DNA of 64,000 nt from Thermoguttaceae bacterium (lineage in GTDB: Bacteria; Planctomycetota; Planctomycetia; Pirellulales; Thermoguttaceae), in contig JAFRAC010000007.1 in assembly GCA_017405595.1 (NCBI GenBank), forward strand, positions 1 to 64,000, written 5' to 3'. How positions within the stretch are numbered: the first letter of the stretch is position 1; the number at the start of each line of letters is the position of its first letter. A model generated the notes under the pieces. That model made no database searches and was not told the origin of the DNA. It saw only the letters and a program-made list of their open reading frames with translations. Made by a program: the position numbers and the translations under genes. Shown here piece by piece: positions 51,121-63,116 of the stretch.

Positions 51121-54100
51121 TCAGAAGCCGCCCATGCCGCCCCCCATGCCGCCGCTCATACCGCGGCTGCCGCCCCCCATGCCGCCGAAGCTGCCGCCCC
51201 CCATGCCGCTGCCCCCGCGCATGCTGCTGATGCTCCCCATACCGCCCCCGCCGCGGCTCCCCATGCCGCCGCCGAAGCCGCCGCTCATGCCTCCGCCCCC
51301 GCCGAAGCCCCCGCCCGACATTCCGGAAGAGGTGTTGTACTGGAACATGCGGAGCATTCCGCTGAACGCCGCGTTCGGGGAAATCAGCACGTAGCGCCGG
51401 TCAGGCGTGACGCCCAGGTTCGGCTGCATCTGCGCGCCGACCGTGACCGTGCTGATCACCGGCATGTAGCCGGAATCGGTTCCGAGGGTGTACTGGAGTT
51501 CCGGCGTGACGAAGTCGGTATCGGCTTTCTTGACCGGCTCCTTTTCGCCCAGCGTATACGAGGCGGCGTAGTTCTGATTCTCGGCCGCGCGCGCCGCCGC
51601 GGCTTTCGCCGAACGGTCCTGATAAGCCTTCACTTTTTCGGAAATCTCCTTGTCGGTTTTCACCCGCAGCTGTTCGACCAGCGCCGAGGCGGTCAGAAGC
51701 TCCTGCTTGACCTCTTCGCTCCGGCGGCCGTTTTCGAGGGTCACGGTAAACCCGGCTTTGCCGTCTTTCAGTTCAAGCACGCGCTCAAACACTTTTTCAT
51801 TCTCGGTACCGATCCCGGTGATAATCTTCACCGTGACTTTCCCCTGCGGCAGCTCGCCCCACGTGCGGCTGACGACCACATCGTAATCGCCGGTAAACGC
51901 CGTCGGGCAGGTGTAGACCTTGCAGCGCTCCCCTTCCTGCTGTTCTTCGAGCGAGGAGGCTCGGACCGCCTCGGTCCGCAGGATTCCCCCCGCCCCGGTC
52001 CGCGGCTGGGCAAACCAGCAGACGGTGTTGACCGGCTCTTTGACCGCGATATCGATTTCGGCGCTTCCGGTCCAGCGGACTTCGATGACCAGGTCGCGCA
52101 CCAGCGCTTCGGTCAGCTCTTTCTGGTATTCGGCGAGCTCTTCTTCCCGCCCTTCACTTTTCATCTTTTCGATCAGCTCTTCGGCAAGCCGGCTTCCGGC
52201 TTCCCAGACGTCGGTCTCGAGCCGCCCTTCCCAGGCGCCGGAAGCGATCCCGATCGTCACCCATTTCTGAGCGTCTTCGTCGCCTGTTTCCTGGGCCAGC
52301 GCCAGCGCGCGGATATACGGTTCGGGGCGGGCGGGGTCGAACTTCGAAACCTCGCGGTAGAGTTCCAGCGCCTTTTGGTTCGAACCGATCGTCTCCAGGT
52401 ATCCGGCGACCCCGAGAACGGTGACCGGGTCATCGGCGAACTCCGCCGCCGAAAGGATGACCCGTTCCACTTCCGACTGGGGAGCGTCGGACTGCATCAG
52501 CGCGATGGCCAGCGCCTCGTACATCCAGCCGGCCGCATAGTCGGCGCGGATGGCGGCTTTGATCGCCGCCGCGGCTTCGTCGTACTTCTCCGCCTTCATC
52601 AGGCTGTTGACCTCTTTGACGAAGTCCATCTGGAAGTTGTAAAGGGCTTCCTCGTACTCTTTCTGCCGCTCGGCGCGGACAGCTTCGCGTTCTTCGTCGG
52701 TTCCCTCTCCGGGGGCTTCCGGCGCGGCGGGAGCTTTCGCCGCGAAGTAGCTGTCCCACTTTTCGTCGAGACCGGCCGGCGCGCTCATCAGGGTTCCGGG
52801 CGCCTTCGCCTCTTCGGCGGGCTTGTCGGCTTTGGCGGGAACGTTAAACATGCCGCCGCCGAAACCCCCGCCGCCGCGGTTGCCGCCCCCCATGCTGTTC
52901 AGCCCCATGTTGCCGCCGCCGCCGTTCAGGTTGCTGAGCGAACTGTTGCCGGAACTGGGAACGAGCGTCAGGTCCGAAACGGGATAGTAGCGGAGATGAT
53001 AGATTTCGCGCCAGAGGTCGTCCGAGGATTCGAGCCCCTCGATCGTGTCCCGCGTCGTGATATACAGATACTCGTCGCGCACGCAGGGAACCAGGTCGTA
53101 GGGACGCAGAATCAGGTTCAGCGCGGTTCTCAGGCTGACCGAAAGGAGCGTGTCCTGGATGACCATTTCGTCGAGCGAGTTTTCGCTCTCTTCGATCGCC
53201 GCGCGGTCGAAAACAATGTTGATCCCCTTGTCGCGCTTGATCTCGTTGATCCAGTCGGTCAGCGGCCGGCCCTCTTCGTCGTTCTCGTCGACACGCACGT
53301 CAATGGTGTCGTTCAGGGCGCGGATAATCTTCTTGCGTGTTTCAGACTGGGTAAAGAGCGAAGCGTCGGAATACTTTTCCTTGCGGGCCTTGGAAAGCGC
53401 CAGCCACGTATCGGCGTCGGGGTAAATGATCGGCGGCTCGTCGGAAGTCGGAATGTGCGACCGTTCCACCGACATCAGAACGTCGAGGAACCGGATCCGG
53501 CGGTATTTGCGCAGGAACTGGTTCTCGGAAAAGGCGTCGGTCAGGCGGGCGACATTCGCCGCCTGGGTCGGAAGAGCCAGGTCGTCGATCAGGTCGGCGG
53601 CCGTACTCGCGACATCGGCGGCAAGCGTGTATTGCTCTTCCGCCACCAGCGAGTTGAACCGTTTCATGATCTCTTCGACCTTTTTCTGGTTCTCGGCGCG
53701 CTGGTTCGTGATCGAGGCGATCGCGGTCAGCTTGGCGTTGTTCCGCATCGCGTCGAGGTCGCGTTTGTCTTTGGCGAATTTTTCGCGTTCCAGAAAACGG
53801 GCGTTCGCCTCGAGCGAGCCGAGCAGCTCTTCCCGGTCGGCATCGGCCAGGAACGGATTGTTCTGAACCGACATGATCGCCAGCTTGATGTTCTGGATCG
53901 CGCCGAGCGGATCGGTCACCGACTGTTTGCGGGCGCTGTCGATGGCGGCCTTGATCTCGGTTTTCACCTGGGCGGTCTTAAGGCGTGTGTTCGCGTCCGA
54001 AGCGCCGAGCAGATTCGCCGTTCCCGGCTCCGAGCCGGCCTCATGGGCATCGATGGCCGCTTCGGCGGCGGCAAAGGCGTCCTGGGTATCGGGGTCGCCC

Positions 54101-54177
54101 GAAACGGCCCGCACCGGGGTTCCGAACGCTGCGGCGGCGACAAACGCCATCGAAAGAAGGAAAAGGCGGTTTCTCAT
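51121..54177 (-). CDS. Exported secretin-STN-like/TPR-like protein with Gly/Met-rich tail
   Basis: About 1018 residues with a signal peptide (MRNRLFLLSMAFVAAAAFG). In order: a helical region (~25-230); a short domain at ~300-375 (DKGINIVFDRAAIEESENSL, LLSVSLRTALNLIL, VRDEYLYITT) that resembles the secretin/TonB N-terminal (STN) domain; a Gly/Asn-rich linker; TPR-type helices (~500-640); a beta-rich region with TVTVGAQMQPNLGVTPDRRYVLISP, which resembles the conserved pre-secretin segment; and ~65 residues of Gly/Met/Ser repeats (MSGGMGGGMGG). The true secretin barrel domain is not evident. Associated with VWA and pilus-type ATPase genes; may be an outer-membrane-side scaffold. Confidence 0.75.
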   Translation of the reverse strand: MRNRLFLLSMAFVAAAAFGTPVRAVSGDPDTQDAFAAAEAAIDAHEAGSEPGTANLLGASDANTRLKTAQVKTEIKAAIDSARKQSVTDPLGAIQNIKLAIMSVQNNPFLADADREELLGSLEANARFLEREKFAKDKRDLDAMRNNAKLTAIASITNQRAENQKKVEEIMKRFNSLVAEEQYTLAADVASTAADLIDDLALPTQAANVARLTDAFSENQFLRKYRRIRFLDVLMSVERSHIPTSDEPPIIYPDADTWLALSKARKEKYSDASLFTQSETRKKIIRALNDTIDVRVDENDEEGRPLTDWINEIKRDKGINIVFDRAAIEESENSLDEMVIQDTLLSVSLRTALNLILRPYDLVPCVRDEYLYITTRDTIEGLESSDDLWREIYHLRYYPVSDLTLVPSSGNSSLSNLNGGGGNMGLNSMGGGNRGGGGFGGGMFNVPAKADKPAEEAKAPGTLMSAPAGLDEKWDSYFAAKAPAAPEAPGEGTDEEREAVRAERQKEYEEALYNFQMDFVKEVNSLMKAEKYDEAAAAIKAAIRADYAAGWMYEALAIALMQSDAPQSEVERVILSAAEFADDPVTVLGVAGYLETIGSNQKALELYREVSKFDPARPEPYIRALALAQETGDEDAQKWVTIGIASGAWEGRLETDVWEAGSRLAEELIEKMKSEGREEELAEYQKELTEALVRDLVIEVRWTGSAEIDIAVKEPVNTVCWFAQPRTGAGGILRTEAVRASSLEEQQEGERCKVYTCPTAFTGDYDVVVSRTWGELPQGKVTVKIITGIGTENEKVFERVLELKDGKAGFTVTLENGRRSEEVKQELLTASALVEQLRVKTDKEISEKVKAYQDRSAKAAAARAAENQNYAASYTLGEKEPVKKADTDFVTPELQYTLGTDSGYMPVISTVTVGAQMQPNLGVTPDRRYVLISPNAAFSGMLRMFQYNTSSGMSGGGFGGGGGMSGGFGGGMGSRGGGGMGSISSMRGGSGMGGGSFGGMGGGSRGMSGGMGGGMGGF

Positions 54178-56073: not shown

Positions 56074-56259
56074 ATGGAATTGCGGGCGGGGGGATTGCCG
56101 GCATTTTTTTGTTCAGAAAGCGCGCCGTTTTCCCGGCGCCCTCTCAATTTGACTGACGGGAGCCTCAGACTATGTCATCGACCGATGCGGGGACAGAACT
56201 CCACTTTACGCGCAAAAAGAAAGAACTCGAAATCGACGCTCTCTTCCGGGCCCTGGTGA
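56074..56259 (+). CDS. Possible upstream short frame overlapping the PilT gene
   Basis: An ATG at 56074 follows AGGGGAGG with 6-base spacing right after the promoter and runs 61 codons, overlapping the first 88 bases of the PilT gene in another frame. Product begins MELRAGGLPAFFCSESAP. No family; it may only be translated to couple initiation downstream. Confidence 0.25.
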   Translation: MELRAGGLPAFFCSESAPFSRRPLNLTDGSLRLCHRPMRGQNSTLRAKRKNSKSTLSSGPW

Positions 56260-57320
56260 AGTTCAAGGGGAGCGACCTCCACCTGAAAGTTGACCGTCCC
56301 CCCTATATCCGCGTCAAGGGAAGCCTGCGCACGCTCAACCGCGGCCCGATCGACGACGAAGAGATGGAACGCCTCATCTACCCGATGATGGACGAGCGCA
56401 ACCGGAAAATCTACAACAACGACGGCGGCGCCGACTTCGCGCACACCTGCCTGTGCGACGGGGTTCAGTGGCGGTTCCGTGTCAACGTGCTCACCCAGAT
56501 GGGGCATATCGGGCTGGTGGCCCGCCGCATCAACAACGACATTCCCGAACTCGAAAAGCTTCATCTTCCCCCCGTTCTTTACAACCTGTGCAAACACGAA
56601 CAGGGGATGATCCTTCTGGCGGGGGTTACGGGGAGCGGCAAATCGACCACGATCGCCTCGATGCTCAACTGGGTCAACCGGAACTACTACAAGCATATTT
56701 TAACCCTCGAAGACCCGATCGAATTCATGTTTACCGAAGACAAATGCCTGATCAACCAGCGGGAGATCGGGCAGGACGTCATCGACTTCAGCGTCGGCAT
56801 GAAACATGCCGTGCGGGAAGACCCCGACGTGATGCTCGTCGGGGAAATGCGTGACCGCGAAACGTTCGAGACGGCCATCCACGCCGCCGAAACGGGGCAC
56901 CTGGTTTTCGGAACGATCCACGCCTCCTCGGCCCCTTCGACAATCGGCCGTATCCTCGACCTCTTCCCCGCCAACATGCACAAGGCGATCCGTAGCGCGC
57001 TGGCGCTCAACATGAAGGGGATCGTCGCGCAGAAGCTCCTCCCCTCGATTCTGCCCGGCGTGCAGCGCGTGCCGACCTGCGAGATCATGATCTTCAACAG
57101 CATCGTTCAGAAACTCGTCCTCGAAGAACACGACGAAAAACTCGCCGACGCGGTGCGTATCGGCGCGCAGGAGGGGATGCAGGATTTCACGATGAGCCTG
57201 AAAAGCCTCGTCCAGGCGAAAAAGATCGACCGCGCCACCGCGTTCCAGGTCGCCCCGAACATCGAGTCCCTGAAAATGGCGCTCAAAGGGATTGAAGTCA
57301 AGGAACCGGGCATTCTGTAA
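56172..57320 (+). CDS. PilT/PilU-type twitching ATPase
   Basis: About 382 residues, close to the family's usual ~350-380. The N-terminal PAS-like domain includes SDLHLKVDRPPYIRVKG. The motor domain has Walker A at residues 151-158 (GVTGSGKST), the Asp box in LTLEDPIEFMF, Walker B as PDVMLVGEMRD and the His box near FGTIHASSAPSTI. It hydrolyses ATP to pull back type IV pilus-like fibres or drive related machines. The C-terminal AIRNLIRE-type motif of retraction PilT is not exact (AVRIGAQEGMQDF). It heads an operon with two degenerate GspE-like paralogues; no pilin genes are seen. Confidence 0.9.
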   Translation: MSSTDAGTELHFTRKKKELEIDALFRALVKFKGSDLHLKVDRPPYIRVKGSLRTLNRGPIDDEEMERLIYPMMDERNRKIYNNDGGADFAHTCLCDGVQWRFRVNVLTQMGHIGLVARRINNDIPELEKLHLPPVLYNLCKHEQGMILLAGVTGSGKSTTIASMLNWVNRNYYKHILTLEDPIEFMFTEDKCLINQREIGQDVIDFSVGMKHAVREDPDVMLVGEMRDRETFETAIHAAETGHLVFGTIHASSAPSTIGRILDLFPANMHKAIRSALALNMKGIVAQKLLPSILPGVQRVPTCEIMIFNSIVQKLVLEEHDEKLADAVRIGAQEGMQDFTMSLKSLVQAKKIDRATAFQVAPNIESLKMALKGIEVKEPGIL

Positions 57321-57337: not shown

Positions 57338-59314
57338 ATGACATACGCGCTCTCACGAACTTTCCGGCGATTTTTTCTTCCCGCGCTTCTGCCGCTGGCG
57401 ATCCTCCTGTTCGCTCTCTCGATGACCTCATCGGTTCAGGCGGCGAAGTCCGACAAAGACAAAAAGCCGCCTCAGGAAAACGACTATTACAGCCAGGAAA
57501 GCTGGTACGGCAACTTCTTCAAATGCTTTCAGATCTGGCGGCCCGAACTCAAATACAAGAAAGAGAACCATCAGGCGGTCTCCCGTCTGGGCGAGGAAGC
57601 GAAAAAAGGGTGGCGGAAAGACGCCGGCCGGTACTACAGCATTCTGAAGCTCTCGCTTCTGATGATCCTCTTCTGGGTCTGGACCGCCACCTCGACCTGG
57701 GTCAACAACGACGCGCAGCGGCTGGTCGATCTGCACCGGGTCGGGTGGAACACCACGATGGCGGTCACCTTCCCGGTCGGGTTCCTGCTGGCCCTCTTCA
57801 TTCCGGTCTTCTGGGTCGGGTTTCCGGTTCTCTTCGTTTTCTGGTTCGCGCCCCTCTGCACGTATATCGTGCACCGCAATTCGGGCGTGCTCGACGCCGA
57901 CAAGGTCATGACCCCCGGCCACATCGCGTTCCTCGCCAAGCGCCTCGCCGGCATGGACGTGAGCAAGCCGAAACCGATGGCCTACATGACCGGCGCGCCG
58001 ATCGAGATCATTTCGGGGGGGAAACGCGTTTCGGACGAAGCCAAAACGGGGCGGACCATCGCCGCGCGGAACCAGCAGCCCGGGTTTAACCACTTCAAGG
58101 AGGTGGTCTACCAGGCGATCCGCTACAACGCGATGATGATCCGGATTACGTCGTCCGCCGGCCAGGCCGGGATCTCGTTCTTCATCGACGGGGTCTGGAT
58201 TCCGATGAACAACGTTCTCGACCCGGCGAAAAAGCGCGCGGTCACGCCGCAGGAAACCGAACAGATCATCCGGGCGATGAAAGTCCTTGTCGGCGCCGAC
58301 ACCGACGAACACGCCCGGCGCCAGACCGGCGAATTTCTGATGAAATACGACCGGAAAAAGAAGATGGAAGCCCTTCTGGCCACCCAGGGGAAAGGGGGCG
58401 CCGAAGAAGCGCTCGTGCAGTTCCAGCTTCTGAGCCTGCCGTTCACCACGCTCGACGAGCTGGGAATGACGCCGAAACGGCAGGAGATGTTCCGGAAAAT
58501 CCTCGCCGCCGAGAAGGGGCTCTGCATCCTCGGCGCGGCGCCGGGCCAGGGGCTGCGCACCTTTACGAACGTGGCGTTCAATGCCACCGACCGGTTCACC
58601 CGCGACTTCGTAACCGTCGAAGACGTTCAGCGGCCCTACATGACGATCGAAAACCTGACCAAGGTCACGTACGATTCCGCCAAGAAGGAAACGCCGATGA
58701 GCGTTCTGCCCGACGTCTTCTTCAAAGAGCCGAAAGTTCTTCTTTTGCGCGACATGATCAACCTCGAAACGCTGAAACTCTGCTGTGAAGAGGTCAGTCA
58801 CGACCGCCTGATCGTCAGCGCGTTCCGGGGAATCGATTCCGCCGACACCATTATGCGCGTTCTGCAGACCGGAGTGCCGCGGAAGCTTTTCGCCGATTCC
58901 CTCTACGCCGTCGTCACACAGCGGCTGATCCGCCGCCTGTGCCCGCACTGCAAGGAAGAGATTCCCGCCCAGCCGGAACTGGTCCGCCGCCTGGGGCTGA
59001 ACCCGCAAACCGTCAAGACGCTCTGGCGCCGGCGCGTGCACGCCGCTCCGGAACCGGGCCAGAAGGACCGGTACGAACCCTGCCCCCACTGCCTGGAAAT
59101 CGGCTATTGGGGAAGAGCCGGCGTCTACGACGTCATCATTGTCAACGACGAAATCCGCCAGATCATCACCGCGGCTCCTTCGGCCGACGCGATCCGCAAA
59201 GCGGCACTCAAGTCGGGAAGCCGGGGCTACTTCACCGACGGCGCCGACCTGGTGGCCGCCGGCGTGACCTCGTTCGACGAGTTCCGGCGTTTCATGCAGG
59301 GAGGGAACAAATAA
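57338..59314 (+). CDS. Membrane-anchored GspE/PilB-like protein with degenerate P-loop, copy 1
   Basis: About 658 residues starting 18 bases after the PilT gene. A signal-like segment and two or three transmembrane segments (to about residue 185) precede a cytoplasmic part. This follows the GspE layout: ISFFIDGVWIPM resembling the N2 domain, TVEDVQRPYM at the Asp box, LLLRDMINLETL at Walker B (family GEIRDLET), QRLIRRLCPHC at the C-terminus, and Cys4 motifs CPHC at 535-538 and 582-585. Where Walker A should be, residues 399-408 read GAAPGQGLRT, with no Lys. ATP hydrolysis is therefore unlikely. The second copy shares the same substitution. Confidence 0.82.
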   Translation: MTYALSRTFRRFFLPALLPLAILLFALSMTSSVQAAKSDKDKKPPQENDYYSQESWYGNFFKCFQIWRPELKYKKENHQAVSRLGEEAKKGWRKDAGRYYSILKLSLLMILFWVWTATSTWVNNDAQRLVDLHRVGWNTTMAVTFPVGFLLALFIPVFWVGFPVLFVFWFAPLCTYIVHRNSGVLDADKVMTPGHIAFLAKRLAGMDVSKPKPMAYMTGAPIEIISGGKRVSDEAKTGRTIAARNQQPGFNHFKEVVYQAIRYNAMMIRITSSAGQAGISFFIDGVWIPMNNVLDPAKKRAVTPQETEQIIRAMKVLVGADTDEHARRQTGEFLMKYDRKKKMEALLATQGKGGAEEALVQFQLLSLPFTTLDELGMTPKRQEMFRKILAAEKGLCILGAAPGQGLRTFTNVAFNATDRFTRDFVTVEDVQRPYMTIENLTKVTYDSAKKETPMSVLPDVFFKEPKVLLLRDMINLETLKLCCEEVSHDRLIVSAFRGIDSADTIMRVLQTGVPRKLFADSLYAVVTQRLIRRLCPHCKEEIPAQPELVRRLGLNPQTVKTLWRRRVHAAPEPGQKDRYEPCPHCLEIGYWGRAGVYDVIIVNDEIRQIITAAPSADAIRKAALKSGSRGYFTDGADLVAAGVTSFDEFRRFMQGGNK

Positions 59315-59317
59315 GCC

Positions 59318-61570
59318 ATGAACCTCTTTGCACTGATTCTCCTGGCCCTCTGCGGCGTCTTTATCGGCTCGGTCGGATACGTCATCTGGAAGAAGGGGTT
59401 CTGGCCCGGGCTGGCCGGCGCGTGCGCGTTCTTTCTGGCGCTCCTGTTCGCTCTGCGCTACGATGTCGCGTCGGAAAAGATTCTGGTCCCCCTCAAAGAG
59501 ATGGCGATGGGAACCTTCCTCGTGCTTCTGGTTGTCGGAAGCATGGTGTTCGGCGCCATCACCGCCCAGGCCCGCCCGCTGAAGTATTACTTCTCGAAGA
59601 AAGCCGACAAGTTCATCAGCATCGCGCCGATCGCCCTGATGACCCTTCTTTGTGTGATCCTGGTCTCCGCAGCGGTCCGCTACGAAGTCAGAGACCCCGA
59701 TAAAGACGAAGTGAAAGTTGTCGGCACCCAGGAAAAAAGCCAGAGCGACTCTTCCCCGCTCCGCGAGGAATTCGGAAAGTTCAACCAGAAGCTCGGGTAT
59801 CTCAACGCCAAAGATCACCTGTGCGGCATCAGCGCCGACATTAAAAAGTATTTCTCGGTTCCCCTGCAGATCTCGCTGGTGCTCGTCTTCTGGCTCTGGG
59901 TGATGACCGGCGCCTGGGTCGCCGAAGACGCGCCGAAAATCAAAAAGATTTCCAACCCGACGGTCTGGAAAGTGATTTTTGCGCTTGTCTATCCGATCGG
60001 CATGGCCATCGGGGTCTTTCTGCCGATCTTTGCGGCCGACGCGTTCGTTCCCGTGATTCTCTTCCTGGTTCCGGCGCTCGTCTATGTCGCCATTCACAAC
60101 AAGAACGTTCCCGATTCCGACAAGGTGCTCACCCCCGACCACCTCGGCCGCTTCTTCCGGCAGATGTTCAAAGTCAAGAAGAAGAAGGGGGGCCGCCGCG
60201 TGATCGAGATGACGGTCATCGACCTTTCGGCGTACGGCAAAGCGTTTCCGAAAGAGGTTCTGAAAGAGCGGACCGAAGCCGCGCGTTCCCTTCCCGGCTA
60301 TACGCCGTTCGGCACGATCGTCAACAACGCGCTTCTGCGGCGCGCGACGAAGGTGGAATTTGAGTACAACGGCGAGACGAGCGTCCTGAAATACTTCATC
60401 GACGGGCTCTGGCATCCGGTTACCGACCTTTTTAAGCGCCCGCTCACCCCGCAGGCTTCCCGCGCGCTCTGTATGTCGATGCGCGCGATTCTGGGGGACA
60501 ATTCTCCTCTGGAAGCGGAACTCCAAAAGGAAAAGAATCAGGAGAACGCGCCGAAAATCCAGATCCCTCCCAAAGTGGCGGGGCAGTTCTTCATTGAATA
60601 CGACAAGCGGGGCGGAAAGAAAAAGAAGATGGCCGCCCGCCTTCTGGTGCAGACCAAAGGCAGCGGCGAAAACGCGCTGATGCAGTTCGAGCGGCTGGCG
60701 ATCCGTTTCGGCTCCTACGAAAAGATGCGCGTCGGCGCGAAACGCGCCGAACAGATGAAAGGGCTTCTGGCGCTGCCGAAAGGGCTCATCGTCTTTGCCG
60801 CGCCTCCGGGCCAGGGCCTGCGCACCTTTACCGAGGTGTCGTTCTGCGAAACCGACCGGTTTACGCGCGACGCCGCGACGGTCGAGGACATCCGCCACCC
60901 CTACATGGTCATCGAGAACCTGCCGCTGACCACCTACGATTCGTCGAAAGGGGAATCGCCGCTTTCGGTACTTCCCGGGGTCTTCTTCAAGGAGCCGAAA
61001 CTCCTTCTGATCCGCGACATCGTCAACAAGGAGACGCTCAAGCTTTGCTGCGACGAGATTCAGAACGAGCGGATGATCGTAACGACTCTCCGCGCCAAAA
61101 CCTCGGCGCAGGCGCTGATGCTCCTGCTCCGGACCGGAATCGACCCGAAACTGCTCGCCGATTCCCTGACCGCGATCATCACGCAGCGGCTAATCCGCAC
61201 CCTCTGCCCGGAATGCAAAGAGGAAATCCCCGCGACCGAAGAGATGTGCCGCCGGATCGGCGTTCCCGCCGGCCGCGTGAAATCGTTCTGGCGCAAGCGC
61301 GTGCATGTCCCCCCCGAGCAGGGACGCGACCCCTACGTGCCGTGCAAACACTGTATGGAAACCGGATACTACGGAATGGCGGGCCTGTACGACGTGATCG
61401 TGATCAACGACCAGATCCGCCAGATCATGACGACAAAACCGAGCGAAGAGGCGATTCAGCGGGCGGCAATGAAAAGCGGCGGCGGCACCTTTACCGCCGA
61501 CGGCGTCCGGATGATGATCGAGGGCCTGACCTCGTTTGAAGAACTTTCACGCGTGCTCCGGCTCTTCTGA
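59318..61570 (+). CDS. Membrane-anchored GspE/PilB-like protein with degenerate P-loop, copy 2
   Basis: About 750 residues, paralogous to copy 1 over its C-terminal two thirds. It has more membrane segments (about six between residues 1 and 265, with a ~75-residue charged loop). The P-loop region reads APPGQGLRTF (about 495-504), the Walker B equivalent KLLLIRDIVNKETL, followed by QRLIRTLCPECKEE and Cys4 motifs CPEC (630-633) and CKHC (676-679). The shared substitution and retained Zn-type cysteines in both copies point to selection for a non-hydrolysing function such as a motor adaptor or membrane base. It begins 4 bases after copy 1. Confidence 0.82.
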   Translation: MNLFALILLALCGVFIGSVGYVIWKKGFWPGLAGACAFFLALLFALRYDVASEKILVPLKEMAMGTFLVLLVVGSMVFGAITAQARPLKYYFSKKADKFISIAPIALMTLLCVILVSAAVRYEVRDPDKDEVKVVGTQEKSQSDSSPLREEFGKFNQKLGYLNAKDHLCGISADIKKYFSVPLQISLVLVFWLWVMTGAWVAEDAPKIKKISNPTVWKVIFALVYPIGMAIGVFLPIFAADAFVPVILFLVPALVYVAIHNKNVPDSDKVLTPDHLGRFFRQMFKVKKKKGGRRVIEMTVIDLSAYGKAFPKEVLKERTEAARSLPGYTPFGTIVNNALLRRATKVEFEYNGETSVLKYFIDGLWHPVTDLFKRPLTPQASRALCMSMRAILGDNSPLEAELQKEKNQENAPKIQIPPKVAGQFFIEYDKRGGKKKKMAARLLVQTKGSGENALMQFERLAIRFGSYEKMRVGAKRAEQMKGLLALPKGLIVFAAPPGQGLRTFTEVSFCETDRFTRDAATVEDIRHPYMVIENLPLTTYDSSKGESPLSVLPGVFFKEPKLLLIRDIVNKETLKLCCDEIQNERMIVTTLRAKTSAQALMLLLRTGIDPKLLADSLTAIITQRLIRTLCPECKEEIPATEEMCRRIGVPAGRVKSFWRKRVHVPPEQGRDPYVPCKHCMETGYYGMAGLYDVIVINDQIRQIMTTKPSEEAIQRAAMKSGGGTFTADGVRMMIEGLTSFEELSRVLRLF

Positions 61571-61607: not shown

Positions 61608-62294
61608 ATGTGGATCGATTTTTCCCAATACCCGATGTTCTGGATCTGCTGCCCGATCATCCTCCTCTGCCTTTTGGGATTCTGCCGGAAAGAGTCGCTC
61701 TGGACGATTCTGCTCCTGCCGTTCTGCCTCTTTTTCGCGACCTTTTTCGCACTCGGCTACTTCGAGCCGCTGGCGAATCTTTTGGATAAGTTTTTCCCGA
61801 AACTGGCGTTCTACAACGACCTGACCGCGTTTACCATCATCTACGCCGCGGTGTTCGCGCTCAACATTTTCGTGACGCAGTTCCTTTCGCGAATCAACCT
61901 CTTTTTCCCCGACAAGGTCAACTTCATCGGAAACATCTCGCTTCTGGCGGTGATCTTTCTGGTGTTCTATTTCTGTGTCGCGCCGGTCTTCTTCTACCTG
62001 ATTCCGGAAGGCCCTCCCCGGCTGACGTTCGACAATCTGCAGCCGATGCCGCAGTTCTCGGTTTACGAGCGGCTTTCGAGCGGTTCGCTGAGTTCAATCA
62101 AGGGAGATCCCGCCCGGGACCGTTTCAGTTTCACCGACTTCTACAAGGCCGAGGTCGGGAAAAACGCCATCGTCTACTCTCAGGTGCTGGCGGTTTCGGG
62201 AAGCGAAAAAGCCAAGGGCGACGAATGGCAGCAGAAAAACAAGCCTTCCCCGAACGTTACGGTCAAGAAGGACGACAAGAAGAAAAAGAAATAG
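61608..62294 (+). CDS. Membrane protein with CvpA-like segment pattern, 228 aa
   Basis: The ATG at 61608 is preferred over earlier in-frame codons within the upstream gene. Four hydrophobic segments occupy residues ~8-145 (FWICCPIILLCLLGF, LWTILLLPFCLFFATFF, FTIIYAAVFALNIFVT, ISLLAVIFLVFYFCVAPVFF), recalling CvpA-type proteins, followed by a soluble tail ending in a Lys-rich run. Family assignment is weak. Position in the pseudo-GspE operon suggests it is part of the same membrane assembly. Confidence 0.7.
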   Translation: MWIDFSQYPMFWICCPIILLCLLGFCRKESLWTILLLPFCLFFATFFALGYFEPLANLLDKFFPKLAFYNDLTAFTIIYAAVFALNIFVTQFLSRINLFFPDKVNFIGNISLLAVIFLVFYFCVAPVFFYLIPEGPPRLTFDNLQPMPQFSVYERLSSGSLSSIKGDPARDRFSFTDFYKAEVGKNAIVYSQVLAVSGSEKAKGDEWQQKNKPSPNVTVKKDDKKKKK

Positions 62295-62333: not shown

Positions 62334-63116
62334 ATGCTCTTCGACGACAGCGCCGCCGGCAGCGGCAAACCCCGGTATTCCTCAGCCTCCTGGACGGCGG
62401 AAGAGCCGCAGGACCAGTTTTCCGCGGTCTGTATTACGGCGGTCTTCGCGCTGGCCGGCGGTGTCCTTTCCCTCCTCTGCCTGGTAAACCGTTCGCTCTG
62501 GCCGATTCCCGCCCTGACCCTCGCGGCGGTGATCGGCGCCTTCTGGCGGATCCACCGTTCCGAAGGCCGCCTGACCGGACTCGGCCTGGCCCGCCTGGCC
62601 CTGGCGCTCGTCCTGATTCCGGTTACCGCCATGCCGATCCAGCGCTGTCTGTATAACCGCCAGCTGATCGCGCAGGCGCGCGCGTTCTTCCCGCTGGTCA
62701 TCAAGGCGGCCCAGGAAGGGGACACCGTCGCGCTGAGCCAGTTTCTGCGGTTCCAGACCTCCCGCCAGACCGTCACCGACGAGGCGGAATACTGGAAAAG
62801 CCAGTTTAACGACCAAATGGGGAGCATTACCGCGCAGATGCTTGTGCGGAACCCCCTCCTTATCGCGCTGGCAAACCTCGGCGAAAACGCGTCGGTCACC
62901 TACGACCGCACTGTGGGAATCGGCTACAGCAGCAAATACGATTCCGACCAGATCTGCTGCATTTACGCGGTCACCTATTCGGAACACAACGACAAAAAAA
63001 CCTTCTTTATCCGCCTGGACGGCGTCAGGGCCCGCGACAAAAAAAATCACACGGCTCTCTGGAAATGCGAGCGCTACCCCTCGAAGCCGATCTCCCTCGC
63101 AGGAAACCCCGAATGA
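62334..63116 (+). CDS. Membrane protein with soluble C-terminal domain, 260 aa
   Basis: AAGGAGA precedes the ATG. Three hydrophobic segments (residues ~32-50, 57-70, 80-100) are followed by a ~150-residue soluble domain with Cys-Cys (SDQICCIYAVTYSEHNDKKT) and a mixed beta pattern. No family recognised. It follows the CvpA-like gene by 39 bases and its stop overlaps the dinG start. Confidence 0.7.
   Translation: MLFDDSAAGSGKPRYSSASWTAEEPQDQFSAVCITAVFALAGGVLSLLCLVNRSLWPIPALTLAAVIGAFWRIHRSEGRLTGLGLARLALALVLIPVTAMPIQRCLYNRQLIAQARAFFPLVIKAAQEGDTVALSQFLRFQTSRQTVTDEAEYWKSQFNDQMGSITAQMLVRNPLLIALANLGENASVTYDRTVGIGYSSKYDSDQICCIYAVTYSEHNDKKTFFIRLDGVRARDKKNHTALWKCERYPSKPISLAGNPE

Follow-up and report, generated by a model that had tools for sequence, protein, structure and literature searches.

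The stretch of DNA analysed here, referred to as the window, covers 64,000 nucleotides (positions 1 to 64,000 of contig JAFRAC010000007.1, assembly GCA_017405595.1) of a rumen Thermoguttaceae bacterium (Pirellulales, Planctomycetota) known from a metagenome-assembled genome (MAG) that is 85% complete. The locus of interest within it comprises five genes in the order pilT-like, A, B, C and D, all of them on the + strand. The first (56172..57320) codes for a PilT-family ATPase with intact Walker A, Walker B and His-box sequences (GVTGSGKST, LVGEMRD and TIHASS, respectively), and is the partner gene of A and B. Seventeen bases downstream lies gene A (57338..59314), whose 658-residue product was characterized from its open reading frame (ORF), profile matches, alignment and a structural model as a membrane-anchored PilB/GspE pseudo-ATPase. 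A further 3 bases separate A from B (59318..61570; 750 residues), which the ORF, alignment and a phylogenetic tree show to be a tandem paralogue of A. The two proteins are 38% identical. The results described below indicate that A and B belong to a conserved, derived and probably twice-evolved family of pseudo-ATPases, most likely the partner of a PilT-like motor.

Both proteins match the T2SSE domain (PF00437) in Pfam, with E-values of 1.4e-32 (A) and 3.3e-25 (B), and this domain together with the core fold places them in the PilB/GspE family. Their scores against the GspE and PilB models are nevertheless far under the equivalog cut-offs (122–136 bits for A, versus 617–676), so that equivalog level is not reached. 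An earlier note, made from the sequence alone, had pointed to two ORFs carrying GspE landmarks, namely QRLIR and two Cys-x-x-Cys pairs; these are present in both proteins as described, and the four cysteines (C535, C538, C582 and C585) were invariant in a 30-row alignment. The same note had reported a lysine-free Walker A sequence and an altered Walker B in both proteins, which the alignment bears out. In place of GxxGxGK[ST], both contain PGQGLRTF, with G-L-R-T and no lysine: A reads APGQGLRTF (LGAAPGQGLRTF, about 58538..58564, + strand) and B reads PPGQGLRTF (FAAPPGQGLRTF, about 60803..60829, + strand). At Walker B, RD[LMI] takes the place of the GE of GEIRD and the catalytic glutamate is missing; the sequence is LLLRDM within KVLLLRDM in A (58739..58756, + strand; canonical hhGEIRD) and LLIRDI within KLLLIRDI in B (61004..61021, + strand). 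The changes at the ATP site extend further than the note had recognized, since the His-box histidine is replaced by arginine in A and B, and the order Pirellulales has also lost D267, H269, R282, R346 and R361, charged or histidine residues that intact orthologues invariably carry in their N-terminal half. With the sequence requirements for hydrolysis gone, A and B are predicted to be devoid of ATPase activity, and the annotation of proteins of this type as ‘GspE/PilB ATPase’ is probably wrong about activity.

The N-terminal membrane segments proposed for both proteins were supported by hydropathy analysis and by the model. Protein A has hydrophobic segments at residues 8–36 and 139–179, and an extra helix was modelled at 102–126; B has about seven hydrophobic segments, all of them before residue 262. 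The AlphaFold2 model of A had a mean predicted local distance difference test (pLDDT) score of 69, with values mostly of 75–90 in the ATPase core and low confidence in the N-terminal 220 residues. Foldseek comparisons of this model with PilF, PilB and EpsE structures gave E-values of about 1e-31 to 1e-28, the best being for Thermus thermophilus PilF (5oiu; 1e-31). Like this protein, Geobacter PilB (5tsh) and Vibrio cholerae EpsE (1p9w), A and B have the core fold and the Cys4 motif, the matches spanning the ATPase core. Unlike these motors, they lack the P-loop lysine, the Walker B glutamate and the His-box histidine, are not adjoined by PilC, and have an N-terminal membrane domain of their own, for which no match to the known N-terminal domain was detected. 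A search of the window's own genome found this membrane domain in A and B but nowhere else, the canonical motors included.

The lysine-less site is a property of the whole order. Matches to A were found in all 99 relatives searched, although some may be ordinary GspE proteins. The P-loop lysine was absent from each of the 63 order members aligned, its position being occupied by Leu (59 cases), Met (two), Phe (one) or Tyr (one); the Asp-box glutamate was kept in about 92% of them, and the Walker B aspartate in about 94%. Frames are open across the order, and the tandem duplication is kept in genomes of the same genus. The ratio of nonsynonymous to synonymous substitution rates (dN/dS) against four relatives was 0.12–0.20 for A and 0.13–0.19 for B. 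Such low values make it very unlikely that A and B are decaying. A decaying relic on its way to a pseudogene would find some backing in family f28 of a second class of the phylum (L174 and L175), whose proteins have lost even the CxxC pairs, and in order member L179, where the Cys motif is only partly preserved. However, the order-wide open frames, the retained duplication and the selection data contradict this idea, which is hardly credible. Decay of A and B was thus rejected on the basis of purifying dN/dS values and order-wide conservation. The A/B family is a conserved pseudo-ATPase, and the proposal of a conserved non-canonical function is upheld by the order-wide loss of the lysine, the purifying selection and the intact PilT partner.

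The tree set, which included further members of family f16, showed the lysine to be absent from 57 of 58 order rows (Leu in 50). The sole exception was the second copy of a tandem pair in the f16 genome L180 (L180:8773-10101, +), which reads LPGDGKST, with lysine again, and has no membrane domain. This copy, together with the largely kept Asp-box glutamate and Walker B aspartate, could be taken to mean that A and B are still active ATPases with a non-canonical nucleotide site, using for example a lysine from elsewhere. This is highly improbable, given that the lysine, the Walker B glutamate, the His-box histidine and the charged N-terminal residues have gone together and that, in the second class, the residues replacing the lysine are varied, as expected for a released site. 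Several other f16 members (L181–L184) are shorter and have lost the N-terminal membrane domain, but still have the changed ATP site, and PilT as a neighbour. Membrane anchoring is therefore not essential, and the persistence of the dead ATPase-like domain beside PilT in these proteins suggests that this domain, rather than the anchor alone, is what PilT needs and what carries the function.

Orthologues from the other orders of the class share the N-terminal domain (profile matches start at positions 3–12) and mostly have GPTGAGKST, GEIRD and HAND-type boxes. The P-loop lysine was present in all 20 intact orthologues from these orders and from families f56 and f70 of another class, and most of the other-order orthologues with an ordinary P-loop also have PilT directly upstream. 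Since these proteins combine an ordinary P-loop with the same N-terminal domain, membrane anchoring appears to have preceded the loss of the ATP site, making the non-canonical site the derived state. The earlier note had regarded ordinary P-loops at the same syntenic position in close relatives as evidence against its interpretation; they do occur there beyond the order, but not inside it. Two partly eroded proteins were also seen in other orders: one (L162:7494-9356) keeps the lysine but has DELRD and LQAMD, while GPTGSGKTT and GEIRD remain in the other (L150:7723-9609), whose His box reads LQATD. In the second class, probably the Phycisphaerae, the lysine was absent from all 30 representatives, which came from many families, and was replaced by Arg (nine), Leu (eight), Val (seven), Gln (two), Ile (two), Ala or Met. 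A pattern scan of genome contigs identified rumen planctomycetes and a Thermoguttaceae MAG (80–84% identity) as the nearest named relatives of the window; the same scan, the one test of distribution outside the phylum, had close relatives and canonical GspE proteins as its hits.

A tree of the ATPase-like proteins, built with the motif columns removed, recovered the order as one group (support 100) and the second class as another (support 98). It also showed that a single duplication, which one other genus member shares, gave rise to A and B; a second tandem pair is present in f16 (L180). The identical changes in two paralogues, which had been taken as an argument for function, are thus real but do not constitute independent evidence: the duplication took place within the genus from an ancestor already lacking the lysine, so the changes were inherited in common. 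Independent change of A and B was rejected on these grounds. Whether the two lysine-less groups join was left undecided by this tree (approximately unbiased test, p-AU = 0.67), the constrained tree being even better, possibly because of long-branch attraction. The tree of the linked PilT proteins, from which four long-branch rows were left out, separated the window's class from the rest (support 99), with the order nested in the class; rooting on the canonical PilT of the C8 locus was unreliable owing to its very long branch. A single clade of order plus second class, i.e. a single loss, was rejected by the PilT tree (p-AU = 0.013). On the basis of this tree and of the class assignment of the genomes, the ATP site was probably lost twice, once before the radiation of the Pirellulales and separately in the second class. 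The sequence of events would then be an active motor with a membrane domain, loss of the site before the Pirellulales radiated and again in the other class, and finally the genus-level gene duplication.

The neighbouring PilT has remained intact. The window protein passes the pilT_fam model (TIGR01420) with 390 bits against a cut-off of 319, and among 90 PilT partners the P-loop lysine and the His-box histidine were found in all, and the Walker B glutamate in 89. Mean identity across the order was 74% for PilT versus 33% for the A-type protein, and the dN/dS of PilT (against three relatives) was 0.015–0.019. In the stretch examined, PilT was the gene immediately upstream in 43 of the 56 rows from the order and in 26 of the 30 from the second class; of the 13 order rows without it, six are downstream tandem copies and others reflect contig ends or overlapping ORF calls. 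Co-occurrence with PilT, which the earlier note had proposed to check, is usual but not absolute. Retraction by PilT requires an AIRNLIRE-type motif. The window PilT has IVQKLVLEEH instead, whereas the PilT of the C8 locus (L196:3465-4601, -) has ANLIRENK. Lacking the ANLIRE-type stretch, the operon PilT is perhaps no retraction motor of the ordinary kind. With its catalytic residues kept, it is the plausible engine.

No platform protein (PilC/GspF), pilin or secretin of its own was found in the operon. PilC/GspF genes occur at only two other loci of the 85%-complete genome, C8 (pilB-pilT-pilB-pilC) and C25 (gspE, gspF), where ordinary PilB/GspE genes lie beside PilC/GspF, and the secretins sit at other places; a further gene may have been missed in the part of the genome that the assembly lacks. 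This distribution, and the lack of the ANLIRENK stretch in the window PilT, show the A/B/PilT operon to be a separate module and not the ordinary pilus locus of the genome. The motor sets at C8 and C25 could provide A and B with other partners: the canonical PilB/GspE motors, or the PilC of those pilus loci, with which they might form joint assemblies or which they might inhibit. Motor inhibitors such as CpiA are known (PMC8213720). Even so, A and B are linked to a different PilT and their N-terminal domain is not found in the canonical motors, making this quite unlikely.

The membrane-associated PilT partner suggested by the earlier note is still the best reading. Its idea of a conserved non-canonical function stood, while the independence of the two paralogues did not, and ordinary P-loops turned up beyond the order. 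We consider it about an even chance, judging from the sequences and from analogy, that A and B were once an assembly motor and now serve the PilT-like motor as a dock at the membrane or as its regulator. Under such a scheme, their ancestor would be a PilB/GspE assembly motor in which the N-terminal membrane domain was already present, and whose gene was usually accompanied in its operon by one for a PilT-family motor and, in many genomes, by one for a CvpA-like membrane protein. The nucleotide site would have been given up in the Pirellulales, and probably separately in the second class, with the fold and the Cys4 motif retained, along with most of the neighbourhood. At the inner membrane, A and B could be a static partner that works independently of nucleotide, either docking the PilT-like ATPase or acting on it as an allosteric ring; hydrolysis in the operon would then fall to the PilT-like subunit alone. 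Docking is proposed because of the operon linkage, the co-conservation, and the ability of a dead PilT to let PilU work: in V. cholerae, retraction driven by PilU continues when PilT carries the Walker A change K136A, but not when pilT is deleted (PMC6821130). The likeness lies in a lysine-less PilT-family ring supporting an active paralogous motor; there, however, PilT was inactivated by mutation in the laboratory, whereas A and B are natural, PilB-like and membrane-anchored, and the live protein is PilT-like. In the archaellum, FlaH (ArlH) is a non-hydrolysing partner that stimulates FlaI (PMC6011876), again a non-hydrolysing protein of ATPase fold paired with a motor of the PilT/VirB11 superfamily.

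Several points weigh against docking. Contact with PilT is deduced from linkage, co-conservation and precedent; the partner of A and B might instead be a PilB/PilC encoded at the canonical pilus loci; nucleotide could conceivably bind in a non-canonical pocket, the Asp-box glutamate and Walker B aspartate being conserved; and PilT is not adjacent in f22 genomes or in order members L073, L084 and L085, so that the link is not absolute. The main rival is a signalling or regulatory protein, with A and B representing a permanently nucleotide-free PilB-like state at the membrane that would report on or control the pilus or envelope together with the CvpA-like protein, instead of docking PilT for the generation of force. 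In Myxococcus xanthus, PilB is thought to signal in its nucleotide-free form, and an ATPase-deficient Walker A variant supports exopolysaccharide production (PMC5544727), i.e. a nucleotide-free PilB-type protein in a non-motor role. That variant is an engineered point change in an active motor, whereas A and B are a separate gene family. The missing pilin, PilC and secretin would fit signalling, but it leaves the adjacency and strong constraint of PilT unexplained and is rather unlikely. A further reading is also unlikely: a phylum-wide planctomycete two-ring motor working without PilC, formed by a membrane PilB-like ring and a PilT-like one, in which the assembly ring became a stator twice independently.

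An active assembly ATPase is considered a requirement of type IV filament motors. In the present case, the assembly-motor protein has been retained without its catalytic site in one order and, probably as a separate event, in a second class; beside it lies an intact and far more constrained PilT. If A and B work together with PilT, they offer a natural test of what a PilT ring needs from its partner (docking, symmetry, anchoring) apart from ATP hydrolysis. It would also suggest that these bacteria, with their unusual cell biology, possess an envelope machine not yet described; no account of the A/B locus was found in the papers searched on Planctomycetes with PilT, GspE or CvpA.

Divergent to the operon, positions 51121-54177 (-) code for a 1018-residue protein with a weak tetratricopeptide repeat match, a long Gly/Ser/Met-rich tail and no NCBIfam matches. 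In 38 of 77 loci, spread over the class (L053–L189; e.g. L061:11129-11911, and L160 from 6032), the gene directly preceding pilT is hisF, although this is not so in the window. Downstream of B, gene C (61620..62294, start approximate) codes for a four-segment membrane protein, and D (62334..63116) for a fast-evolving two-segment membrane protein with a soluble tail; they were found in 50 and 27 of the 77 loci, respectively, and dN/dS against four relatives was 0.11–0.16 for C and 0.36–0.48 for D. The C protein of the window had no Pfam matches itself, but its homologues in several genomes match PF02674 (Colicin_V/CvpA) above the Pfam cut-off. In the second class (L166–L174), the CvpA-like neighbour is often far longer (351–606 residues), which suggests an added domain.

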